Positions 2,939 through 18,113 of a stretch of DNA of 32,409 bases are shown piece by piece. Numbering within the stretch: the stretch's first letter is position 1; every line of letters starts with the position of its first letter. Below the pieces are notes generated by a model that made no database searches, had not been told where the DNA came from, and was given only the letters and a program-made list of their open reading frames with translations. The stretch is taken from NCBI GenBank assembly GCA_009838845.1, contig VXRD01000125.1, positions 1-32,409 of the forward strand. The letters run 5' to 3'. A program made the position numbers and the translations under genes. Origin of the DNA: Gemmatimonadota bacterium. GTDB taxonomy: Bacteria > Latescibacterota > UBA2968.

Positions 2939-3385
2939 ATGCAACTTTGCAAGAAACCTGTACATTCTTATGGCAGGTATAAACAGGCTGTACAATTGTA
3001 TATGCCAGGATCAAGCTCACCACCGACAGCCTTCGTAGAAGCGTCAGTAGAGGTTGGTGAAACCCTGGTAGATATTGGCAGTGCGGCTCTTGATGCGGTT
3101 GATCAGCTTGCTGAAGACTTCTTCACCACTGGGGTTACAGTCCATGAAAATGAGGATGCATCCCTGTCTGTTCGTTATCCAGGCGTAACAAATACGTATA
3201 GAGAGTCGCCTGATCCTGCAGTCCCTGATACCGTATATCAGACTACATCTATAGTTAATTTTACGGTCTATGGACACGGGATAGTGATTGAGAAGACAGT
3301 CAAAACTCCAGTAATAGAAGTGCCAGAAGATGCACCAGAAACAGATACAGATGACGAAAAGAAAAAATCAACAACGGGGGATTAA
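2939..3385 (+). CDS. Hypothetical acidic 148-aa protein, candidate export substrate
   Basis: I do not recognise this protein. The start at 2939 is chosen because AAGGAG sits at 2926-2931, 7 nt ahead; an upstream extension of the frame would overlap the transporter and has no such site. The N-terminus is basic (MQLCKK...), the middle (about 35-70) could form an amphipathic helix, residues 75-125 are rich in V, T and Y and look beta-rich, and the tail is strongly acidic with a short KKK run. There is one cysteine (residue 4), no Gly-Gly leader site and no classical signal peptide. Its place right after the HlyD/ABC pair and ahead of two proteases makes it the best candidate for the cargo, which is inference from position. 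It is enclosed by a 16-bp inverted repeat, suggesting an insertable or separately regulated cassette. Confidence 0.6.
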   Translation: MQLCKKPVHSYGRYKQAVQLYMPGSSSPPTAFVEASVEVGETLVDIGSAALDAVDQLAEDFFTTGVTVHENEDASLSVRYPGVTNTYRESPDPAVPDTVYQTTSIVNFTVYGHGIVIEKTVKTPVIEVPEDAPETDTDDEKKKSTTGD

Positions 3386-3458: not shown

Positions 3459-4247
3459 ATGAACAGCAATAGAAACTTAAAATCCACACCTTGGCCACTT
3501 GAAGTTGATATAGGATTTGGTCGAGGTATTGTTCTGACAATCACTGTGTTTTTGGGCAGCCAGCTATTGTACTGGCTCGTTGACCGTACCCAAAAAATAG
3601 TTCTATCTTTTTTAAATTACACTCTAAGTAATACCGGTATTGGTAGCGAAATCTATAGCGGTATTTTAGTCATTTTGGGGTTTATTTTTGTTTATATCGT
3701 TGTGCAAAGGTTTGGAAGAATTAATATCAGAACCCTATTGTGGCATACGCCACCCTCATTAAAACAAGGTATTAAATGGGCATTTTGGGGTTTTTGCTTA
3801 TCCTTTTTCTTTTGCTTGCTTCAGTTATATGCGGATGGTTATATAATAAAAGGTTATGGATGTTATCATTATAGCGACAAATCTTTTCTATATGTTTCTA
3901 TGATAACATTTATTGACATCGCAGTGTCTGGTGTTTTGGCTCCGATAAAGGAAGAAATCTCAGAGAGAGGTATTCTTTATGCGGCTCTGAGAAAAAAAGG
4001 AAAGGTAATAGCGTATTTTCTTTCTGTATTTTGGTTCGTCTTTCTCCACGTACCTTCGTATTCAAATTTGTTTTTTAATGGCATTATAGGGCTTACACTG
4101 CACCACTTCATTCTTATTATTTTAACGGGAATTATTACAGCGTATATTTATGAGTCCACGGGAAAGCTGATACTGTGTGTTATTTTTCACTGCGCGATTA
4201 ATGCGACTCTTACCCTGAGTGCCTTCTTGTATTACTTGATCACCTAA
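3459..4247 (+). CDS. CPBP-family intramembrane metalloprotease (Abi/CAAX-type)
   Basis: A 262-aa polytopic membrane protein with about seven hydrophobic segments. All three CPBP motifs are present in order: the EExxxR motif in KEEISERG (near residue 167), FLHVPS (FxxxH), and HCAIN (HxxxN) near the C-terminus. These carry the glutamate, histidines and asparagine of the glutamic-type intramembrane protease site. Family members process prenylated proteins or, in bacteriocin clusters, act in self-immunity or peptide maturation. In this cluster a maturation or immunity role for the exported product is plausible but is inferred from context. No strong ribosome binding site precedes the ATG (only AGG adjacent to it). 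Confidence 0.85.
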   Translation: MNSNRNLKSTPWPLEVDIGFGRGIVLTITVFLGSQLLYWLVDRTQKIVLSFLNYTLSNTGIGSEIYSGILVILGFIFVYIVVQRFGRINIRTLLWHTPPSLKQGIKWAFWGFCLSFFFCLLQLYADGYIIKGYGCYHYSDKSFLYVSMITFIDIAVSGVLAPIKEEISERGILYAALRKKGKVIAYFLSVFWFVFLHVPSYSNLFFNGIIGLTLHHFILIILTGIITAYIYESTGKLILCVIFHCAINATLTLSAFLYYLIT

Positions 4248-4318
4248 ATCATTATAGCGTAGATGATAAATGCTCTTTGCTGAGGTGCATGCTCTGGCAT
4301 TCTTGGTATGCGACATCA

Positions 4319-5254
4319 ATGTCGAAAAAAAATAAAATGCAAAAAATAAAATCCTTCTTTTTATGGGTGGGCATTGTGCTTGCGGTTGTTATTGGGAGCA
4401 CACTTATTTGGCCGTATTTGAATTATGCCAATTCTGAATACTGGCACAATAGAGGTAGAGCTTTTTATGAGAAAAAAAACTATGAAAAAGCTCTAAAAGC
4501 GTTTGAGCATGCGATATCTTTGGATCCTGAAGATACCTCTGCCTATCAGTGGAAGGCGGCGGTTTTTCTTAAACTGGAATCTTATAATCAAGCCATTGAC
4601 GCCTACGATCAAATCCTTGCATATAGCCCTGATAATCCCAAAATAGTGCTTCTTAAAGGGCAGACTTATGCCAGGGCGAAACAATTTGAAGTGGCACTCG
4701 AAATATTTGATCAGGCGATTAGCACGGGAATCGATAGGCCAGTGAAGATTCAGAATGGCACATTTTCTTTTCAGTATTTACTATTGATCCAGAAATCAAT
4801 AGCACTGATGGAGTTGGAGCGGTATGAAGAGGTACTTAGCGTACTTGAAGCCGCAATCAAAAAGTCGCCTCAAGATGCTAATTTGCGGCATAGCAAAGGT
4901 GCGGCATTACTGATGCTGGAACGGTTTGAAGATGCTATCAAATGTTTTGACTATGCCCTTCAGATAGATCCGGATTCTACTAAAGCTGCTTTGGCCTGGA
5001 ATAACAAAGGGTGTGCATTGTTTGGATTAAAGAAATACGATGATGCTCTCAAAGCGTTTGATCAAGCACTTCTGCTCGACGCTGATTATGACTCGGCATG
5101 GTATAGTCGTGCCCGTGTCTATGTCTCTTTGGGCAATCGAGATTCTGCTGTTTCTTCCTTGCAAAGAGCTATTGCATTGAATCCTGATCATAAACAAAAT
5201 ATGCGGTCAGATGAAGCATTTCAATCCCTGAAAGGTCTGGAAGTTTTTAAATAG
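4319..5254 (+). CDS. Membrane-anchored TPR-repeat protein
   Basis: A 311-aa protein with a basic start (MSKKNKMQKIK), one transmembrane helix (about residues 13-33), then about six tetratricopeptide repeats on the periplasmic or extracytoplasmic side. Repeats show the typical pattern, for example W.NKGCALFGLKKYDDALKAFDQAL and YEKALKAFEHAISLDPED. TPR proteins act as scaffolds, so this one may tether cluster enzymes or cargo near the exporter. The start at 4319 is preferred over an in-frame start at 4277 because it puts a normal positively charged end before the anchor. Its stop is 2 bp before the S8 protease start, which ties it to the same operon. Confidence 0.85.
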   Translation: MSKKNKMQKIKSFFLWVGIVLAVVIGSTLIWPYLNYANSEYWHNRGRAFYEKKNYEKALKAFEHAISLDPEDTSAYQWKAAVFLKLESYNQAIDAYDQILAYSPDNPKIVLLKGQTYARAKQFEVALEIFDQAISTGIDRPVKIQNGTFSFQYLLLIQKSIALMELERYEEVLSVLEAAIKKSPQDANLRHSKGAALLMLERFEDAIKCFDYALQIDPDSTKAALAWNNKGCALFGLKKYDDALKAFDQALLLDADYDSAWYSRARVYVSLGNRDSAVSSLQRAIALNPDHKQNMRSDEAFQSLKGLEVFK

Positions 5255-5256
5255 AA

Positions 5257-7218
5257 ATGCCAAGTCCAAATTCTTCAAGTATTATAGAGAACAGGATGTG
5301 TGATAAGCAGGTTGTGAAAGTGGCTATTATCGACAGTGGTATTGATATATCACATCCGAGCATTGGGATGATTGCAGGTGGCGTAAATATCTCGATTAAT
5401 AAAGATGGTCATTTTATTTATTCTGGAAAAGTCACCGACTGTGCAGGGCATGGTACGGCGTGTGCCGGGATTATCCGGAAGAAGGCCCCTGATGCAGCAC
5501 TTTATAGCGTGCGGATTTTTGATGCGTCTTTGATAGCAGATGGACGGCCGTTGATTATGGCGATTCAGTGGTGTATTGACAATGAGATGGGTGTGGTGAA
5601 TTTAAGTCTGGGCACGACGGATGTGATGTTTAAGGAGGCTCTTCAGAAAGTATGTCGCAAAGCGGTTGATGCTGGTGTGATTCTCATAGCTGCTGAGAGC
5701 AATGACGGAAGTGAGAGTTATCCTGCGGTATTTCCCGAAGTGATTGGTGTCACAGGTGGTGCGATTGCGGATTTAAGCACTCCACAACAGGCCTATAAGC
5801 CAGACGGATTCTACTACCGCAAAGATCATCGCATCGAATGTGTGACGCGAGGGGATGAACAGCGCGTGTGCTGGTTAAACGGCAAACATATTATGACCGG
5901 AGGAAACAGCTTTGCGGCACCACATATCACGGGCATTATCGCACGCCTGTTGGAACAGCATCCAAAGTGTTCTATTCAAGATATTCGGTTATTACTACAA
6001 GAAAAAGCATTAAACGAAATATCTCAAGGTCAAAATAAGTCCAAATCTGGTCTTCAGTCACACCAAAAAGATTTTCAAGAGGACTATGCCTATATCAAGA
6101 AAGCCGTGTTGTATCCGTATAACAAAGAGATGCACAGTCTGGTGCGCTATCGCGATTTGCTCGCGTTTGAGATTGTCGGCGTTGCCGATCCCATTGGCAA
6201 GGAGATGGTGGGCAAGGATGCGGGCAAGGTAATTGGTGAATCTGTTGCAAATCTTCGGATCAGCCCGAATATTCGGCACACAATGGCAGATGCAGATACC
6301 CTCATTCTCGGCTATGTGGATCAACTATCTCGCATCCGCAAGCGCGATTTGCTCAGAGAATATGTGCAATTGGCTCTTGATGAGGAATGTCATGTGTTCA
6401 GTTTTCAGGCACTTGATCCAACCGTTTACGGCGATCTGTATGATACAGCGGACAAAAAGGGACTGCGCCTTGCCTATCCCCATGTTTTAGGAGAAGAAAT
6501 CACTCAGGCGATTCAAAATTTCAATGTGCTCCCGCCTGTGGATGTGCCAGTGCTTTCTGTGATGGGCACGAGTTCTCAACAGGGCAAGTTCACGTTGCAA
6601 CTCGCGCTCAGGCGCAGGCTCATCCAACAGGGCTATAAAGTCGGGCAGATCGGCACTGAACACCATTCTCGGTTATTCGGCATGGATGCTGCTTTCCCAA
6701 TGGGCTATGCTTCGCCGCTCAAATTGTCATTTCAACATTACATACCGTATCTGGATTACAAAATGCGCGAGATTTGCCAGCGCACACAGCCCGATATTAT
6801 CCTGACAGGCTCTCAGTCGGGGACCATTCCCTATCATGTCCAGGAGCACAGCACACATTGCTTGTCTTCACTGGCGTTTTTACTGGGGGTAAAACCCGAT
6901 GCCTGCATTCTGGTGGTCAACAGCATTGATGCCGAAGAGTACATACGCGATACAATTGATGGGATACGTGCTGTGTGTAAAGCGCCGACTATCTTGCTGG
7001 CGATGGGAGACCACGAGAAGCACATCCGGACAGCTTATGGGCGTAGTATGGTCACGCCAAAAAAGATGGCACAATCTCAAATTGATCGTCACCTCAAAAA
7101 ACTACAAGATTCGTTTTGTGTGCCTGCGATTGGGATTCTTTCAGAGACGGGTCAACAGTGTCTTGTGGAAACTGTGATTCAATATTTTTCAAAGAATGAT
7201 ACATCAACTATCGCATAG
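5257..7218 (+). CDS. Subtilisin-like S8 serine protease fused to a DUF1611 (DgcN-like) region
   Basis: A 653-aa, apparently cytosolic fusion (no signal peptide). Residues 20-240 are a full S8 catalytic domain with Asp26 (DSGID), His65 (GHGTACAG), the oxyanion Asn149 (AAESNDGS) and Ser218 in GGNSFAAPH, a variant of GTSMAAPH. From about 280 the protein matches both halves of DUF1611: a Rossmann-like N-terminal part, then a P-loop-like part with GTSSQQGKFT near 436-445 and conserved-looking stretches such as ILTGSQSGT. DUF1611 includes DgcN, reported as a D-glutamate N-acetyltransferase. Protease genes occur in peptide natural-product clusters, but I know of no S8-DUF1611 fusion. Likely roles are maturation of the exported product plus ATP- or acyl-dependent chemistry; this is inference. 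A second possible start is Met14. Confidence 0.85.
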   Translation: MPSPNSSSIIENRMCDKQVVKVAIIDSGIDISHPSIGMIAGGVNISINKDGHFIYSGKVTDCAGHGTACAGIIRKKAPDAALYSVRIFDASLIADGRPLIMAIQWCIDNEMGVVNLSLGTTDVMFKEALQKVCRKAVDAGVILIAAESNDGSESYPAVFPEVIGVTGGAIADLSTPQQAYKPDGFYYRKDHRIECVTRGDEQRVCWLNGKHIMTGGNSFAAPHITGIIARLLEQHPKCSIQDIRLLLQEKALNEISQGQNKSKSGLQSHQKDFQEDYAYIKKAVLYPYNKEMHSLVRYRDLLAFEIVGVADPIGKEMVGKDAGKVIGESVANLRISPNIRHTMADADTLILGYVDQLSRIRKRDLLREYVQLALDEECHVFSFQALDPTVYGDLYDTADKKGLRLAYPHVLGEEITQAIQNFNVLPPVDVPVLSVMGTSSQQGKFTLQLALRRRLIQQGYKVGQIGTEHHSRLFGMDAAFPMGYASPLKLSFQHYIPYLDYKMREICQRTQPDIILTGSQSGTIPYHVQEHSTHCLSSLAFLLGVKPDACILVVNSIDAEEYIRDTIDGIRAVCKAPTILLAMGDHEKHIRTAYGRSMVTPKKMAQSQIDRHLKKLQDSFCVPAIGILSETGQQCLVETVIQYFSKNDTSTIA

Positions 7219-7226
7219 GAGGGGTT

Positions 7227-7505
7227 ATGTCTATTGAACATCGGGTCAAACAGGTGATCATTCGCACGTTGTCTCTGGAAGTTGATGCAGACGAAATTGA
7301 CGATGAAGATGAACTTTTTGGAGGTGGCCTGGGGATTAATTCAATGGCGACGATTGAGATTATTGTGGGTTTGGAAGAGGAGTTTGGCATTGAGGTGCCA
7401 GATGAAGATTTGCGCGTGGAACTGTTTGATAGCGTGCAAACCATGGCCGACTATATTCGCGCAGTGTTACAGAAAGTACCTGAGGTCGCCGGACAGATAG
7501 AATAG
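7227..7505 (+). CDS. Stand-alone acyl carrier protein
   Basis: A 92-aa acidic helical carrier protein. Ser39 in LGINSMA corresponds to the phosphopantetheine attachment serine of the usual DSL motif; here the residue before Ser is Asn rather than Asp. The following helix (IEIIVGLEEEFGIEVPDEDL) and the end (SVQTMADYIRAVL) are typical of ACP/PCP folds. AGGAGGGG lies just ahead of the ATG and implies strong translation. It lacks a fatty-acid-synthesis neighbourhood, and its partner is the BtrH_N-like protein that follows, so a specialised role in carrying an acyl or aminoacyl group is likely. A dedicated loading enzyme is not visible in the window. Confidence 0.92.
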   Translation: MSIEHRVKQVIIRTLSLEVDADEIDDEDELFGGGLGINSMATIEIIVGLEEEFGIEVPDEDLRVELFDSVQTMADYIRAVLQKVPEVAGQIE

Positions 7506-7548
7506 ATTTTTCGCTCTTACTTAGATGATACAGATTTTGAGATAGCTC

Positions 7549-8568
7549 ATGAAAAAATCGCTTCCCATACAGGTATCCCCACCCATCCACGGCTATCCCC
7601 GCCATGGCTATCGGCTTTCGATTATGTCGCTTCAGGATGATTATATTCCCTGGTTCTTCTGCAATTACATACAGCTATTCGCCGTTGACCTGTTACAGGA
7701 GAGCAAACATAACATCCGATTCAACTTCTATTTTCAGGGTCCGTACTCCCCGCCATGGCTGTCTATCTACACCGTTCCGAGGCGATTAATCGCCAAAGTC
7801 TATCATCAGATTGTGCCGTTTATTCGCGATCAAATTGATGAGGGCTTTTATGTCCAGTTGATGGCTGATGAGTATTTCCTGCCGCATACGCCATTTTATG
7901 AGAAGATACATCATCCACATGCTATTATGGTATTTGGATACGATGACGATACAGAAACACTTGAGACTCTGGGATTCAATAGCGCGCGGGACTATTCTGT
8001 TTCCAGGGTTGGATATTCAGATTTTGAAGCGGCGTTTCGCTGGATTGATCCCGAGAAACGCAGATCGTACCTGGTAACTCTTTTTGAGTATAATGAGGAC
8101 GGTGTCTATGAGTTTGATATTGACGCTGTCATTGACCAGTTGCGAGCCTATGTCCATTCTGAGAATCCATCTATCCACTACCGGACGTTGCGTAAGCCAG
8201 TTGAAGGCGTCTTTGGGATGGCGACGTATAAGCTCTTGCGAGATTATTTTACGCATTTGTTTGTTCATCCCCGGTTGTGGGATCGACGGCATTTGTTCAC
8301 GCTTTGGGAGCACAAGCGTTGTATGCTGAACAGGCTTGCTTATCTGGAAGAGCGCGGGTATTTGCGTCGGTCAGACCAGTTTCATCAGGCGTACAAGGAG
8401 GTTGAACAGAAGGCGCATCAGATTCATCTGATGATGCTTAAATTGCGAGCGTTGGTGGAGGTCAAGAGAGCGTGGGATATGGATCGTATTTTGAAGATTA
8501 TCACCTTGTTAGATGATATTTCTCAAAGGGAAGAGCGCATTCTGAAGGATGTTTTGAAGGCGCTTTGA
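7549..8568 (+). CDS. BtrH_N-like (papain-fold acyltransferase/peptidase-like) protein
   Basis: A 339-aa protein whose first half resembles the N-terminal domain of butirosin protein BtrH. Visible marks are Cys38 in WFFCNY, the DEYFLP stretch at 107-112, and HHPHAIMVFGYDDD at 121-134. A Cys38/His/Asp arrangement could form a papain-type site. The second half is helical (about 230-335), like the C-terminal part of such proteins. BtrH transfers an acyl group from the carrier protein BtrI to an amine acceptor; here an ACP lies 43 bp upstream, so ACP-dependent acyl transfer is the best guess. The acceptor (small molecule or the 148-aa protein) is unknown. This is the last gene of the plus-strand cluster and is followed by a terminator. 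Confidence 0.6.
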   Translation: MKKSLPIQVSPPIHGYPRHGYRLSIMSLQDDYIPWFFCNYIQLFAVDLLQESKHNIRFNFYFQGPYSPPWLSIYTVPRRLIAKVYHQIVPFIRDQIDEGFYVQLMADEYFLPHTPFYEKIHHPHAIMVFGYDDDTETLETLGFNSARDYSVSRVGYSDFEAAFRWIDPEKRRSYLVTLFEYNEDGVYEFDIDAVIDQLRAYVHSENPSIHYRTLRKPVEGVFGMATYKLLRDYFTHLFVHPRLWDRRHLFTLWEHKRCMLNRLAYLEERGYLRRSDQFHQAYKEVEQKAHQIHLMMLKLRALVEVKRAWDMDRILKIITLLDDISQREERILKDVLKAL

Positions 8569-8591
8569 AACGCGTACACGATAGCACATAA

Positions 8592-8634
8592 AATCCCCTA
8601 TTGCGCGTTATTGCGATGGGGGATTGGTTTTTTT
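8592..8634 (+). terminator. Rho-independent terminator of the export/modification cluster
   Basis: The stem AATCCCC (8592-8598) pairs with GGGGATT (8619-8625) across a 20-nt loop and is followed by GG and seven T residues. The T run overlaps the stop codon of the convergent DUF58 gene. Confidence 0.75.
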
Positions 8635-9523
8635 ACATCAATTTTTTGCGTTTGGCGAGGTAGTTGAAGAGGGCGGTGTCAAAGGGTTCTGAGGTTTCGA
8701 GGAGGACGTAGTCGATCATGGCTTCGCGGCATTCGCGGCGGTAGCGGTTGATGAGGGTTTCCATGTGGTCGCGGTACTCGGGTGCGAGGTGCCAGGGTTC
8801 TGTAGAGATTTGCGTGCCGGATTCGAGATCGACGAAGCGCATTTCGCGGTTGAAGTCGAGGTCGCGCTCTCGGGGGTCCAGGATGTGGAAGACGATGACT
8901 TCGTGGTTGCGATGGCGAAAGTGTTTGAGGCCGTTGAGCAGGCGGTCTGGGTCGTCGAAGAGGTCGGAGATGACGATGACGAGGCCGCGACGCACAATGC
9001 GTTCTGCCAGTTCGTGAAAGGTGGCGGCGAGGTCGGTGTCGGTGCCTTCGGGGCTGGTGTTTTGAAGTGTGGTGAGGAGGGTGTGCAAATGACTGGTGAC
9101 TGACCGGGGCTGCAAATACGTGCGAATGCGGTCATCAAAGGCGATTAATCCGACGGCGTCGCGCTGGCGCAACATGAGGTGGGATAGGGCGGCTGCGGTG
9201 TAAGATGCGTATTGGTATTTGGTGATGGCGTCCGAGCCATAAGCCATTGAGGCACTGGCGTCTATGAGAAGATGGGATTTGAGGTTGGTTTCTTCTTCGT
9301 ATTGTTTGACGTAGAGGCGGTCGGTTTTGCCAAGTACTTTCCAGTCCAGGTCGCGCAGTGAGTCCCCCGGCATGTATTGCCGGTATTCGGAGAATTCGAC
9401 GGAGAATCCGTGATAGGGGCTTTGATGCAGGCCGGTGATAAATCCTTCGACGACCAGGCGGGCGATCAGGTCCAGGCGCGCGAGCCGGGAGACGACTTCT
9501 GGTTTGAGGTATTCCTGGTTCAT
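8633..9523 (-). CDS. DUF58 domain protein (VWA-like)
   Basis: A 296-aa cytosolic DUF58 protein. The hallmark is EFSEYRQYMPGDSLRDLDWK near residue 45, followed by a VWA-like fold opening with LLIDASASMAYGS, a MIDAS-type DxSxS motif. DUF58 genes usually sit next to a MoxR AAA+ ATPase and VWA membrane proteins. Here there is no MoxR, and the gene lies 2 bp after a chromate transporter gene. The start at 9523 is chosen over a longer frame because the longer version would run into the transporter gene, and the homologous region begins right there (MNQEYLKPEVV). Function in this operon is unclear. Confidence 0.9.
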   Translation of the reverse strand: MNQEYLKPEVVSRLARLDLIARLVVEGFITGLHQSPYHGFSVEFSEYRQYMPGDSLRDLDWKVLGKTDRLYVKQYEEETNLKSHLLIDASASMAYGSDAITKYQYASYTAAALSHLMLRQRDAVGLIAFDDRIRTYLQPRSVTSHLHTLLTTLQNTSPEGTDTDLAATFHELAERIVRRGLVIVISDLFDDPDRLLNGLKHFRHRNHEVIVFHILDPRERDLDFNREMRFVDLESGTQISTEPWHLAPEYRDHMETLINRYRRECREAMIDYVLLETSEPFDTALFNYLAKRKKLM

Positions 9524-9525
9524 CC

Positions 9526-10695
9526 CTAAAAGCCCGCGGCGAGGAGTATCCAACCCGCAACGGCTCCGCCAACGACCAGCCATACTGCGCCGATTCCGCG
9601 CCACAATATCAGAATGGATGCGATGCCTGCGATTGCCATTTTGGGTATTGAATCAAGGGTTAGATAGCCCAGTTCTATTGTTACAGCGGCCATCAATCCC
9701 ACGGCACAGACGTTTACGGCGTCGAGAAAAGACGCCACCCATTCAGATTCTCGCAGCCGGGGCAAGAGGGGATTCAGGGCGGCGACAAATACAAAGGAGG
9801 GTAGGAAGATTGCGCCAGCAGCGACGAGTGCGCCGGATAATTTGCCGCCGGTGACGAGATAGCCGATGAAGGCTGCGGTCGATAATACGGGTCCGGGCGT
9901 GAACTGGCCGATGGCAATGGCTTCCAGCAATTGTTCCTGCGTTAGCCAGGCATACCCCTGTACAAGTTCTTCTTCGAGGAATGCAATGAGTAAGTATCCG
10001 CTGCCGTAGAGGATTGCGCCAATTTTTAGAAAGAACAGGCCCAGTGCCCAGAGGGTTGGTCCTGCTGCGGATACGGCGCCCTGGCTTGCGAGCATGGTCA
10101 ATCCCGTGCCTGCTATTGGCGCGATTGCAGCTGCGTGCCCGCGGTCTCTCGGTCGCGTCATTCTCAGCCAGAACATTCCGACGATTCCGCCGCCGATCAG
10201 TGCGAGGACGCCGTTAAATGGCGTGAGGGCTACGAGCATTACAGCCAGGCCCAGAAAACTCAGTCGCCAGCCTTTTACGGCTTTTTGCCCCAGTCGCCAC
10301 AACGCACCCAGGATGACTGCGAGTACCGCAGGTTTGATGCCGTAGAGCAAGTCGGCGACCTCTGGGATGGCGCCATAAGTCATGTAAGCCCAGGCGAGGA
10401 TTGTTGTCAATGTAACGGCGGGAAATATAAAACACAGGCCAGCCAGCAATAGGCCGGGCCAACCGCCGCGCAAGAATCCCAGGTGTATCGCCATTTCAGT
10501 CGAGTTTGGTCCGGGGATAATGCTGGTTACGCCGACGAGGTCTAAGAATCGCTCGCGCGATAGCCAGGCGCGTTTTTCAACTACTTCGTCTTCCATCAGG
10601 GCGATGTGCGCTGCGGGTCCACCAAAACCTATTACGCCGAGTTTGAAGAATAATGCCGCTACTTCGCGCAGTCGTCCTCGTTTTTCGTTTTCCAT
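9526..10695 (-). CDS. chrA: Chromate transporter, ChrA (CHR) family
   Basis: A 389-aa two-domain membrane protein of the long-chain CHR family. Both halves contain the family pattern: GFGGPAAHIALMEDEVV with IPGPNSTEMA in the first half, and GSGYLLIAFLEEELV with FTPGPVLSTAAFIGYL in the second. About ten hydrophobic segments are seen. The family exports chromate or takes part in anion exchange. It starts 5 bp after the aminotransferase stop, with AGAGG before the ATG, so it belongs to the same minus-strand operon. Nothing else nearby relates to chromate, so the real substrate could be another oxyanion. Confidence 0.92.
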   Translation of the reverse strand: MENEKRGRLREVAALFFKLGVIGFGGPAAHIALMEDEVVEKRAWLSRERFLDLVGVTSIIPGPNSTEMAIHLGFLRGGWPGLLLAGLCFIFPAVTLTTILAWAYMTYGAIPEVADLLYGIKPAVLAVILGALWRLGQKAVKGWRLSFLGLAVMLVALTPFNGVLALIGGGIVGMFWLRMTRPRDRGHAAAIAPIAGTGLTMLASQGAVSAAGPTLWALGLFFLKIGAILYGSGYLLIAFLEEELVQGYAWLTQEQLLEAIAIGQFTPGPVLSTAAFIGYLVTGGKLSGALVAAGAIFLPSFVFVAALNPLLPRLRESEWVASFLDAVNVCAVGLMAAVTIELGYLTLDSIPKMAIAGIASILILWRGIGAVWLVVGGAVAGWILLAAGF

Positions 10696-10700
10696 ATATT

Positions 10701-12068
10701 TTACCTCTGTATATCATCCACAACTTCAGCGAGTACCTGTAAGCCATCTTCGAGCGCGTCTTGTTCAATGGTCAATGGGGGAGAGATTTTTACGGTTTGT
10801 CCCCACGCGCCCACAGGGGCAAAGAATAGCAGTCCTTTGTGAAAACATCGCAGTACAATTTCGTGCGCCAGGTCCGGGTCGGGTTCTTTTTGTCCGGCTT
10901 TTACCATTTGTACACCGCCTACGAGTCCTTTGCAGGTTACGTGCCCGACCACGTCGGGATGTGCGGTTTGGATTTTTTTGATTCCTGCCATCAATACTGG
11001 TTCGAGGCGCGCTGCATTGCCGGTTAAGTCGTCATTTACGATTTTTTTCAGGCTGGCGAGTGCCGCTGCACAACAGACGGGGTTGCCCGTGTGGGTGCTT
11101 GTCATTGATCCGGGGGGGTATAAGTCCATGACTTCGGATCTGCCGATTACGCCCGATAGAGGAAGTGAACTGCTTACGCCTTTGCCAAAGCAGATGAGGT
11201 CGGGCGTTACGCCATAGTGCTCAAATCCCCACATTTTGCCGGTGCGACCAAATCCCGCCTGTATTTCGTCAAAAATTAAGAGAGCATTGTGTGCTTTGCA
11301 CCATTCAGATAGTGCCTGTACGTACGCTACGGGCGCGAAATCAGGTCCCACGCCCTGATATGTTTCGAGCATGACACCGCATACATCGTCTGCATTTAGT
11401 CCTTTGTCTTTGAGTGTAGAGCAGAAGAAGTCGAAATCTACATTTTCTGTCCAATACCCGTCGGGAAAGGGGACCTGTACGATGGCGGGGTCTTCGTTGC
11501 CGATCCAGTCTTTTTGTCCGGGCATGCCGCCGACTTGCTGGGCACCCATTGTACGTCCGTGAAATCCGCGTTCAAATCCCACAAAGCCGATTTTCTTTTT
11601 TCCTCCGGTTGTAATGCCGTATGTTCGCGCGAGTTTCAGGGCGTTTTCCGTGCTTTCAGATCCGGTTGTTAGTAGAAATGCTTTGTCTAACCCTTCTGGT
11701 GCCAGATCCGCCAGAAATTCGACGAGTTGCGCCCGTTCTTCGCTCGGGAATACGTAGTTGTGCAGTAGCCCGGTGCCTACTTGATCTACGATTGCACGCC
11801 GCACTTCGGGCATGCCGTGTCCGGCATTGGTGACGAGTACGCCGGAGCTCCAGTCGAGCCACATGTTGCCGTATTTGTCATAGACCTGACAATCTTCTGC
11901 GCGGTCCCATACAATGGGCGGTTGTCCGCGCATGGAGATGGGTTCTACCCGGTGCAGGGTTTCCAAAGTTGCTACCGAGTCTGGGTGGGGCACAGGGGTC
12001 ACGATGCGGCGATATTTTGTATCGATTTTTGGTACGTTGACAGGGGTGATGTCAAATTCTTTTCCCAT
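10701..12068 (-). CDS. Class-III PLP-dependent aminotransferase (GABA aminotransferase-like)
   Basis: A 455-aa fold-type I aminotransferase. It shows the class-III signature LLIFDEIQAGFGRTGKMW followed by DLICFGKGVSSSLPLSGVIG, whose FGKG lysine binds PLP. TTGSESTENALKLAR is the phosphate-binding region. The family includes 4-aminobutyrate, ornithine and other omega-amino acid aminotransferases; the exact substrate cannot be told. The start at 12068 (MGKEFDITP) is chosen because the upstream extension is encoded by an intergenic repeat (FNPGHPDP). Neighbours are a Gfo/Idh dehydrogenase upstream and a transporter downstream, which suggests breakdown of an amino-containing compound. Confidence 0.9.
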   Translation of the reverse strand: MGKEFDITPVNVPKIDTKYRRIVTPVPHPDSVATLETLHRVEPISMRGQPPIVWDRAEDCQVYDKYGNMWLDWSSGVLVTNAGHGMPEVRRAIVDQVGTGLLHNYVFPSEERAQLVEFLADLAPEGLDKAFLLTTGSESTENALKLARTYGITTGGKKKIGFVGFERGFHGRTMGAQQVGGMPGQKDWIGNEDPAIVQVPFPDGYWTENVDFDFFCSTLKDKGLNADDVCGVMLETYQGVGPDFAPVAYVQALSEWCKAHNALLIFDEIQAGFGRTGKMWGFEHYGVTPDLICFGKGVSSSLPLSGVIGRSEVMDLYPPGSMTSTHTGNPVCCAAALASLKKIVNDDLTGNAARLEPVLMAGIKKIQTAHPDVVGHVTCKGLVGGVQMVKAGQKEPDPDLAHEIVLRCFHKGLLFFAPVGAWGQTVKISPPLTIEQDALEDGLQVLAEVVDDIQR

Positions 12069-12072
12069 TGGA

Positions 12073-12113
12073 TCAGGATGTCCCGGATTAAAGGATTTAC
12101 AGGATACCACCCT
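12073..12113. repeat. Interspersed GGAT/CAGGAT-type repeat between two operon genes
   Basis: The spacer between the Gfo/Idh and aminotransferase genes contains ATCAGGATGTCCCGG and GGATTTACAGGAT. Related units lie at 13439-13471, at 18336-18371 in the opposite orientation, and at 23474-23488, each between or at the edges of genes. Confidence 0.6.
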
Positions 12114-15807: not shown

Positions 15808-17265
15808 TTACATGGGTCCAATGCGTTCTGGTCCCCTGTCCATTGCGAGCATTGACGCATCAAAGCTGCGTTGCATTAAGTCGAGTTTTACATCTGCATG
15901 ATCGGGATTGTCCCACAGATTGTCAAATTCGTCTGGATCCTCCTGCAAGTCGTAAAGTTCGCCCAGGCCATGCCCGTGATAGACCACGAGTTTGTACCGA
16001 CGGTTGCGATACATTGTGGCAAATGTTCCGTCGGCTTGATCGAGTGCATCGTAATATTCACAGCGCACGAAATCGCGGTGTTCGTCGGGGGGTTGATCAC
16101 CGCTGAGCAGGGGCAATAGAGGATGCGGTTGCATTCGCTCGGGTACTTCTATACCAGCCAGTTCCAATAAGAGAGGGGCTATGTCGCGCAATTCGACGAG
16201 TGCATCGCTTTTTTGTTCCGATTTTACGTGGCCCGGCCATGAGAAAATGAGCGGTACGCGCACCAGTCCTTCGTAAAAACGGCATCCCTTTTGAATCAGT
16301 CCATGGTCTCCGAGAGTTTCGCCGTGGTCGCTGGTGAAGATAATCAATGTGTTGTCGCGCTGTCCAGTTTCTTCCAATGCGGCTATTATGCGCCCGAGTT
16401 GATCGTCGATTAGTTTGATCATGGCGTAATAGGCGGCGATCAGGGTTTTTGCATCGCGTTTTCCGGCTGATTCAGATTCGTGCAATCCGCGCGTCGGTGT
16501 TCTGGGGATTACAGGGCTTCTGATATCCAGTTCATCGGGATGCCGCCCTTTGGACTGGAAGTCGATGGCTTGTAGTTTTTCCTGTTGCGCGAGATCGCTT
16601 TCTCGGAATAGCGGGCCGTTTACCTGTTCGGAATCGAACATTTCGCGGTACGTTTTGGGTGGGTTAAATGGCGGATGGGGGTCGTAGATGTTCACAGAGG
16701 CCAACCAGGGGCCATCGCGCTGTTCGCTCAAAAATTCGATGGTTTTTTCCACACACCATGTGGTCTGGTGCAGTTCTGCGGGTACGCCATCGGGACTTTT
16801 GATGAGTTCGCCCAAGATTTCGCCTTTTGAACGCACCCAGTCGGCATAATCGTGTCCGGTTTCCCAGTCGTCCCGGGGCGCGTGGCTGTATTGCCAGTAG
16901 CGGTATCCGTCATCTGTTCTTTTTTCAATGCGCCCATGCGCGCTCGATAAGTGCAATTTGCCGATTAGTCCGCAGTCGTATCCATTATCTGCGAGTATTT
17001 TGGTGACCAGGGGGGGCGCGTCTGGAAAATGCGAGTTGCCATTGCCGTTTACGTGTACGGCGCTGGCGTATTGCCCGGTCAAAAAACTCGTCCGACTGGG
17101 TGTGCAAATCGGACTCTGGCAATAGGCATGGGTAAATGCAAATCCTTCGGCGATTAGTCGGTCGATATTGGGGGTATCCACATGGGGATTGCCCAATGCG
17201 CCAATGGTGTCATATCGCTGCTGGTCTGTGCAGATCCACAAGATGTTTGGTTTTGTTCCTTTCAT
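15808..17265 (-). CDS. Type-I sulfatase (formylglycine-dependent)
   Basis: A 485-aa sulfatase of the alkaline-phosphatase superfamily. Cys54 in CTPSR is the residue converted to formylglycine; the metal-binding start (ILWICTDQQRYD) and FTSDHGETLGDHGL are present. No signal peptide is evident, so the enzyme looks cytosolic, unlike many secreted sulfatases. The start at 17265 (MKGTKPNIL) has AAGGAG ahead and overlaps the C-N hydrolase stop by 4 bp (ATGA), which implies translational coupling. It should release sulfate from a small imported sulfate ester. A formylglycine-generating enzyme is needed and is not in the window. Confidence 0.94.
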   Translation of the reverse strand: MKGTKPNILWICTDQQRYDTIGALGNPHVDTPNIDRLIAEGFAFTHAYCQSPICTPSRTSFLTGQYASAVHVNGNGNSHFPDAPPLVTKILADNGYDCGLIGKLHLSSAHGRIEKRTDDGYRYWQYSHAPRDDWETGHDYADWVRSKGEILGELIKSPDGVPAELHQTTWCVEKTIEFLSEQRDGPWLASVNIYDPHPPFNPPKTYREMFDSEQVNGPLFRESDLAQQEKLQAIDFQSKGRHPDELDIRSPVIPRTPTRGLHESESAGKRDAKTLIAAYYAMIKLIDDQLGRIIAALEETGQRDNTLIIFTSDHGETLGDHGLIQKGCRFYEGLVRVPLIFSWPGHVKSEQKSDALVELRDIAPLLLELAGIEVPERMQPHPLLPLLSGDQPPDEHRDFVRCEYYDALDQADGTFATMYRNRRYKLVVYHGHGLGELYDLQEDPDEFDNLWDNPDHADVKLDLMQRSFDASMLAMDRGPERIGPM

Positions 17266-18113
17266 ATATGCTCCTTTTTGCAATCTACTAATTTTACGCC
17301 TTTTTTCATCCATTCGCGCAGGCGCGTTGTGTCATTCACGGCTCGCAATGCGATGTTGCGCGATGCCTGATGGAGGTCTAATTTGCGGATTATGATTTCG
17401 TCGGTGAATATGCCAGCTTCGGTTATGACGTTGCCATTTGGGTGGATGATTTTTGATTCGCCGTGGGAAGATCCCGCGCGGTTGATGTCCAGGGGGTCGG
17501 CAGGGGCGTTTGCCATGACGACGTAGATGTCATTTTCGGTTGCGCGGCTGATGGGCATGGCGCGGTAGGCCGACAATTTGTGCTCTGAGGTGACAGAGCT
17601 TTCACAACTTGAGAAGAAGCAGATTTTTGCACCGGCTGCGGCGGGCAATCTCACGAGTTCGGGATATCGAATGTCGTGACAGATTAAAAAACAACAGGGT
17701 ATGCCGCACAAGTGATAAATAGGCAGGTGTTGCGCGGGTTCACACCATTTTTCACCCGCCAGATGTATTTTGCCATAGCGTCCCTTTACGGTGCCATCGC
17801 GATCTATGACGAGCAGGCTGTTGTAGCGTTGTCCGTTTTCGAGATGTGTTGAGCCTACGATTGCGGCAATGCCTTTTTCACGGCATACCTTTATAATTTG
17901 TTGTTCGGCTCTTTCAATGCGCGTTTGATCCAGGCTTGACCAGAAGTCGGGGCAGTTGGTATAGCCGTATAAAATACCTTCGTGAAATGCAGCTATATCC
18001 ACTTTTTCACGCGCACAGGTGTTTAGACGGTCGATAATCTCACATGTGTTTTTTTCGATGTTCTCATCGGCATGCATTTGACATGCGGCAACGCGCAACC
18101 ATTTTTGGGACAT
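17262..18113 (-). CDS. Carbon-nitrogen hydrolase (nitrilase superfamily)
   Basis: A 283-aa C-N hydrolase with an intact triad: Glu45 (AFHEGILYG), Lys115 (RYGKIHLAGEKW) and Cys145 (LICHDIRYPE). Family members hydrolyse amides, carbamoyl groups or nitriles. GGAGG stands 5 nt before the ATG. It is the first gene of the sulfatase operon and shares ATGA with the sulfatase start. The substrate cannot be assigned; the operon suggests an amide-containing, sulfated compound. Confidence 0.92.
   Translation of the reverse strand: MSQKWLRVAACQMHADENIEKNTCEIIDRLNTCAREKVDIAAFHEGILYGYTNCPDFWSSLDQTRIERAEQQIIKVCREKGIAAIVGSTHLENGQRYNSLLVIDRDGTVKGRYGKIHLAGEKWCEPAQHLPIYHLCGIPCCFLICHDIRYPELVRLPAAAGAKICFFSSCESSVTSEHKLSAYRAMPISRATENDIYVVMANAPADPLDINRAGSSHGESKIIHPNGNVITEAGIFTDEIIIRKLDLHQASRNIALRAVNDTTRLREWMKKGVKLVDCKKEHI

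Follow-up and report, generated by a model that had tools for sequence, protein, structure and literature searches.

The gene cluster

The window, 32,409 nucleotides of DNA from an uncultured Latescibacterota bacterium, has the first base of contig C125 as its own first base. It opens with a run of genes on the forward strand which, judging from their sequences, form a peptide natural-product cluster. The run begins with an HlyD-type membrane fusion protein (5–1171), whose start is missing at the contig edge, and an ABC exporter with membrane and ATPase domains (1174–2889). A small gene preceded by an AAGGAG ribosome-binding site (2939–3385) encodes a putative precursor peptide of 148 aa. It is followed by two genes that are also present in relatives: a CPBP/Rce1-like membrane protease (3459–4247), possibly an immunity protein, and a TPR-repeat protein with a hydrophobic N-terminal segment (4277–5254). 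Next, at 5257–7218, comes an intact open reading frame of 653 aa in which an S8 protease is fused to a DUF1611 (TIGR04066-like) protein.

Downstream lies an acyl carrier protein (ACP) of 92 aa (7227–7505; PF00550, E 1.2e-11), with its phosphopantetheine attachment site at Ser39 (codon 7341–7343). This serine is conserved in 32/32 aligned sequences, and of the 34 clusters for which enough DNA is available, about 31 have an ACP adjoining the fusion. Against the ACP-related model TIGR04069 the protein reaches 18.1 bits, below the cut-off of 70, and ordinary acyl carrier protein models score higher. The last gene of the run (7549–8568) encodes a BtrH_N-like protein, a relative of papain-like acyltransferases, with a score of 26.3 bits that falls under the Pfam cut-off of 29.7. 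About half of the relatives have Ser in place of its putative nucleophile, Cys38, and the WEHK-x-C motif is invariant; these proteins may be able to use either nucleophile, or they may be inactive. An ACP-loading enzyme or phosphopantetheinyl transferase was not seen in the clusters examined.

The gene order of the window recurs in L002/L036, and L036 also holds a second, diverged copy of the gene set in tandem. In L003 and L004 the TPR and CPBP genes are swapped and an extra gene stands ahead of the fusion. Exporter genes are present in nearly every cluster that contains the fusion.

The fused protein

The S8 catalytic domain occupies residues 20–259 (5314–6033), as delimited by Pfam, conservation and fold, and matches PF00082 over this whole range (E 2.1e-24; 86.8 bits versus a cut-off of 21.8). 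The catalytic triad and the oxyanion asparagine are where the earlier note had placed them: Asp26 (codon 5332–5334), His65 (5449–5451) and Ser218 (5908–5910) are identical in 35/35 aligned fused proteins, and Asn149 (5701–5703) is kept in 32/35. The best-scoring named family for this half is QhpE (NF049966; E 1.8e-41, 141.9 bits, cut-off 165). Since the domain begins at residue 20, a signal peptide and a subtilisin prodomain cannot fit ahead of it, and the enzyme should therefore be cytoplasmic.

A flexible linker (residues 256–280; 6022–6096), which varies from 15 to 42 residues among relatives, leads to the DUF1611/TIGR04066-like domain (residues 281–644; 6097–7188). The earlier note had assigned residues 280–645 to both halves of a DUF1611 protein, and this reading holds. 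PF07755 is matched above its threshold (E 1e-7; 32.0 bits versus 25) across residues 428–630; the N-terminal half has no separate Pfam match in the fusion and is evidenced by the fold and by TIGR04066, which covers residues 281–644, and so both halves, with model positions 1–359 of 361 (E 1.3e-37, 129.7 bits). By sequence, no named family is closer to the second half than TIGR04066, the “peptide maturation system protein”. Its curated cut-off of 200 bits is passed by none of the 64 Latescibacterota genomes searched. Because the curated cut-offs of QhpE and TIGR04066 are both missed, the fusion counts as a relative of these families, not as a member.

Structure prediction leads to the same picture. 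The AlphaFold model of the full-length protein (mean pLDDT 83.0, pTM 0.57) comprises two confident domains with a disordered linker between them (pLDDT <50 at residues 255–273), and the second half modelled alone reaches a pLDDT of 88.6 and a pTM of 0.87. In Foldseek searches the first half matches subtilisins. The best PDB matches of the second half are all DUF1611 proteins, namely 2g0t (E 3.7e-14), 2obn and 7xrj, with alignments that span 387–407 columns, nearly the whole of it. The model therefore gives this half the two-part DUF1611 fold along its length rather than an unrelated one, and the two folded domains foreseen in the earlier note are both present. The closest match with an assigned function is 7xrj, the “N-acetyltransferase DgcN-25328”.

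The P-loop-like stretch GTSSQQGKFT singled out in the earlier note is found at residues 437–446 (6565–6594), and the region around G437, T438, Q442 and K444 is retained in nearly all fused relatives. Even among sequences that share as little as 27% identity, these four residues do not vary, and neither do E468, D477 and Q520. From the “EGQG” motif of DUF1611, by contrast, the fusion has lost the glutamate (Gly stands there in the alignment with 2g0t). With this residue exchanged beside an otherwise constant P-loop, E468, D477 and Q520, the reaction may no longer be that of DgcN.

Distribution of the fusion

Is this protein an isolated case? A search for other proteins with both domains, which the earlier note had proposed, gave a clear answer: among 64 Latescibacterota genomes, 35 contain TIGR04066 matches, 53 in total and up to six per genome, and for 40 of the 53 the reading frame is 620 aa or longer. 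The short matches that were inspected, which are most of them, sit at contig ends or frame breaks, and an S8 gene is found directly upstream wherever the DNA reaches, as it likewise is in L037 and L049. A stand-alone TIGR04066-like gene was not found among the 53 matches. The fusion is the rule in Latescibacterota, and its recurrence in many independent assemblies argues against an assembly artefact. Pairwise identities of the S8 and DUF1611 halves are strongly correlated (r 0.90; 0/5000 permutations), which indicates co-evolution, as would follow if the fusion is old and its two parts have been passed on together.

A scan of genome contigs with the single protein returned five close relatives, of which the named ones are Latescibacterota. 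In the plasmids searched, the first half matches S8 peptidases and the second half has no relative; in the viral contigs searched, relatives of the S8 half alone were found and no fusion.

Precursor peptides

The putative precursor gene of the window is syntenic with canonical precursors of L003, L004 and L072. In the syntenic loci, a short gene behind a strong ribosome-binding site stands beside the exporter, and its product starts with the consensus M-K-K-L-x-K-P-...-V-x-A-Y. Small precursors of this type, alike in their leader and hypervariable in their core, are seen in many of the clusters. The window peptide begins with the motif MQLCKKPVHSYGRYKQAVQLYMPG (2939–3010), a variant of the K-P/R...V-x-A/G-Y leader. 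Comparison with L036 divides it into three parts: a leader identical at 40/40 positions, a hypervariable core (3059–3319) with 4–11 identities out of 20 per block, and a tail identical at 18/19. The genes that flank the precursor are 84–94% identical between the two loci. A leader, a core and a follower are the usual parts of the precursor of a ribosomally made, modified peptide (RiPP), and the conservation seen here matches that pattern. Beside a putative maturase and an exporter there is thus a precursor whose leader is conserved and whose core varies, the arrangement by which a RiPP cluster was recognized here.

A regular expression for the leader retrieved 28 open reading frames preceded by a ribosome-binding site in the fetched loci, versus 2 in reversed DNA; one of the 28 (L054, 1903–2565) is probably a chance match. 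A 22-position leader profile matched at E ≤0.1 in about 21 of the 64 genomes, all of which have TIGR04066 matches, a co-occurrence that is partly by construction because the profile was built from TIGR04066 loci, and to which several genomes that contributed no row also belong. The two kinds of match mostly share a contig. When one group at a time was left out, detection of its leaders was weak, with E values from 1e-4 to 4, or failed. The window leader itself is missed by the regular expression and by a profile built without it, and the peptide is unrecognised by NCBIfam; the gene is called a precursor because of its position, its synteny and the variability of its core. Overall, the profile yields dozens of candidate precursor peptides in the Latescibacterota genomes searched.

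Relation to known systems

The partners of the fusion have been met before as separate proteins. In the SacP23 cluster of Paenibacillus polymyxa (PMC10731318), and in the same way in Roseburia intestinalis (PMC4573289), a subtilase, a TIGR04066 protein, a TIGR04069 ACP-related protein, a radical SAM enzyme and an ABC transporter are encoded together by separate genes. The window shares with these Firmicutes clusters the functions of subtilase, TIGR04066 protein, ACP-related protein and ABC transporter. The unfused pair is therefore already known from Firmicutes, and what Latescibacterota adds is the fused form, in which the protease and the TIGR04066 part are one protein. Other differences concern the rest of the cluster. 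The window adds the HlyD, CPBP, TPR and BtrH-like genes; its precursor, at 148 aa, is long and is not rich in Cys, whereas that of SacP23 is short; and the radical SAM gene of the Firmicutes clusters has no TIGR04068-like counterpart on the window contig, as far as it extends upstream, the matches listed for G000, the genome of the window, being on other contigs. In genome G007, which has no TIGR04066 matches, a radical SAM gene scores 330 bits against TIGR04068 (CcpM) at L056 (G007:C188:2060–3460).

DgcN (NF041892; PDB 7xrj) shares with the second half the two-part fold and the P-loop region; unlike DgcN, the domain is fused to a protease, has changed motif residues and is about 17% identical to it. 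From its sequence the domain does not appear to be a DgcN. The earlier note had mentioned that DUF1611/DgcN acts on D-glutamate; as a substrate of the fusion it looks unlikely, because nothing in G000 matches the DgcN model, the “EGQG” glutamate is replaced, and a genuine DgcN occurs as a separate protein in another genome of the phylum. A role in D-glutamate metabolism was accordingly rejected, the families scanned in the window including no DgcA-like neighbour. The genuine DgcN (530 bits) is at L081, 1483–3545, in genome G058, which has no TIGR04066 matches; an enolase-superfamily-like gene adjoins it and may be DgcA.

As for the protease, QhpE is the subtilisin-like protease of quinohemoprotein amine dehydrogenase maturation; that of the window is instead fused to DUF1611, and no Qhp genes were found in the window. 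The PatA/PatG cyanobactin proteases, which work on a RiPP precursor, resemble the fusion in joining an S8 domain to another domain, and they differ in what that second domain is.

A different link is offered by L054 (G050:C1:694000–712000), where positions 4603–12093 hold a fused protease–DUF1611 gene, an ACP, a radical SAM gene, a gene of the PF12640 peptide-arginase family and a precursor. Against FlmE/OhkG the radical SAM protein reaches 389 bits (cut-off 500); the precursor contains Cys, has DILF as its last residues and gives weak matches to the FlmA and Clo7bot models. With the Flm/Ohk “DD(I/V)LF” orphan RiPPs (PMC12703449) L054 shares the radical SAM type and the DILF ending, and would by its sequences tie the fusion clusters to this second orphan group. 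It is the single such locus seen in Latescibacterota, and neither a radical SAM nor an arginase gene was found in the window.

Proposed function

Fusion of two proteins is good evidence that they act jointly. Taken with the neighbouring genes, it makes a role as a two-domain RiPP maturase rather probable for this protein. The S8 domain, in the cytoplasm, would quite likely cut the precursor near the V-x-A/G-Y end of the leader, which reads V-Q-L-Y in the window. It is about as likely as not that the DUF1611 domain works with the phosphopantetheinylated ACP to act on this peptide too, and the fusion could then pass the freshly cut peptide directly to the modifying site. The BtrH-like protein might serve as a second ACP-dependent transferase, and the product would leave the cell through the HlyD and ABC proteins.

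Which reaction might the second domain catalyze? The simplest guess, and a tentative one, is that the ACP donates an acyl or aminoacyl group from its thioester to an amine, for which the α-amine exposed by the cut would be the first candidate; it is drawn by analogy, since the relative DgcN is an N-acetyltransferase and an ACP is kept beside the fusion. The donor of DgcN is presumed to be acetyl-CoA, and in acetyl-CoA as in holo-ACP it is a phosphopantetheine arm that holds the acyl group. The complete scheme, in which one and the same protein cleaves off the leader and, with the ACP, acylates the new N-terminus, is more speculative still. The proposal of the earlier note that one enzyme cuts a peptide and modifies its end has accordingly survived in part: the general idea fits the precursor, the ACP downstream and the exporter upstream; the chemistry that was named for it stays conjectural.

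Two other roles for the second domain have to be considered, both of which we regard as rather unlikely. It could be a non-catalytic binding module (for the leader, the ACP or a nucleotide) that presents the peptide to a leader protease. Separate domains that solely bind the leader are known from other RiPP systems, and the loss of the motif glutamate, the score under the TIGR04066 cut-off and the unmatched DgcN model all agree with such a role; yet the seven residues invariant to 27% identity look like a retained active site, and an ACP with its serine is retained alongside. Or the domain could spend ATP to activate a carboxylate, which it would load on the ACP or join to the peptide, with no acyl-thioester as donor. 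This would suit the P-loop, which resembles the BioD/CobB type, the absence of any other enzyme seen to load the ACP, and a Foldseek match of the second half to cyclic 2,3-diphosphoglycerate synthetase (E 8e-7); the TM-score of that match is low (0.22), however, and 7xrj, the structure that comes closest with a function, points to N-acetyl transfer.

Doubts about the protease half carry less weight. An S8 domain that works as a transpeptidase, a PatG-like macrocyclase or ligase giving a cyclic or ligated product, is improbable: the fusion of a protease domain does recall PatA/PatG, and some cores, those of L051, are hydrophobic like circular bacteriocins, but the PatA/PatG match, at 31.5 bits, is far under its cut-off of 421 and confined to residues 99–236, and it is QhpE that gives the domain its best score. 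S8 proteases are common, so that a housekeeping protease with a stray domain in a coincidental context might be imagined; the phylum-wide tie to ACP, exporter and leader peptides and the presence of up to six paralogues per genome make this very improbable indeed. An immunity role for the TIGR04066 part, the guess made in PMC10731318, is also unlikely: its fusion to a protease of the cytoplasm is more in keeping with processing and argues that this part belongs to the processing step.

The maturase reading bears on a wider group of proteins. TIGR04066 proteins and their ACP partners lie beside bacteriocin genes of Firmicutes without a known function, and an enzymatic activity was found for no TIGR04066 protein in the open-licence papers covered; the fusion turns the problem into a single testable enzyme. 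If true, coupled cleavage and acylation would be the first peptide-maturation function for the TIGR04066/DUF1611 group, and a large family of acylated RiPPs would be defined in an uncultured phylum. The family of clusters, widespread and with its own precursors, ACP and exporter, is apparently undescribed.

Variation among the clusters

Other clusters add further genes: the radical SAM and peptide arginase genes of L054, an ACP–transglutaminase fusion in L039 and, in some, PhyH, redoxins, a rhodanese or a glycosyltransferase. The L039 gene (3083–4435, minus strand) is directly downstream of the fused protease–DUF1611 gene, and its transglutaminase-like domain joined to an ACP would fit a papain-like ACP-dependent acyltransferase. 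In L041, L044, L050 and L052, Cys-containing precursors adjoin genes for 6-bladed beta-propellers (DUF5128), a recurring sub-type of the cluster; L044 has a redoxin-like gene as well.

The fusion itself also varies. In L005 (7977–10184; G037:C1, a single-contig genome), a chimeric open reading frame of 735 aa contains the S8 domain and the start of DUF1611 (query 20–351) and is joined in frame to the second part of the ABC exporter, probably as the outcome of a deletion between tandem cluster copies. The fused protease of L051 has an additional N-terminal stretch of ~245 aa, and the same locus holds four tandem precursor genes (16275–17812, minus strand), whose leaders are near-identical (KP...SYTGE..Q(V/I).AYS) and whose hydrophobic cores differ.
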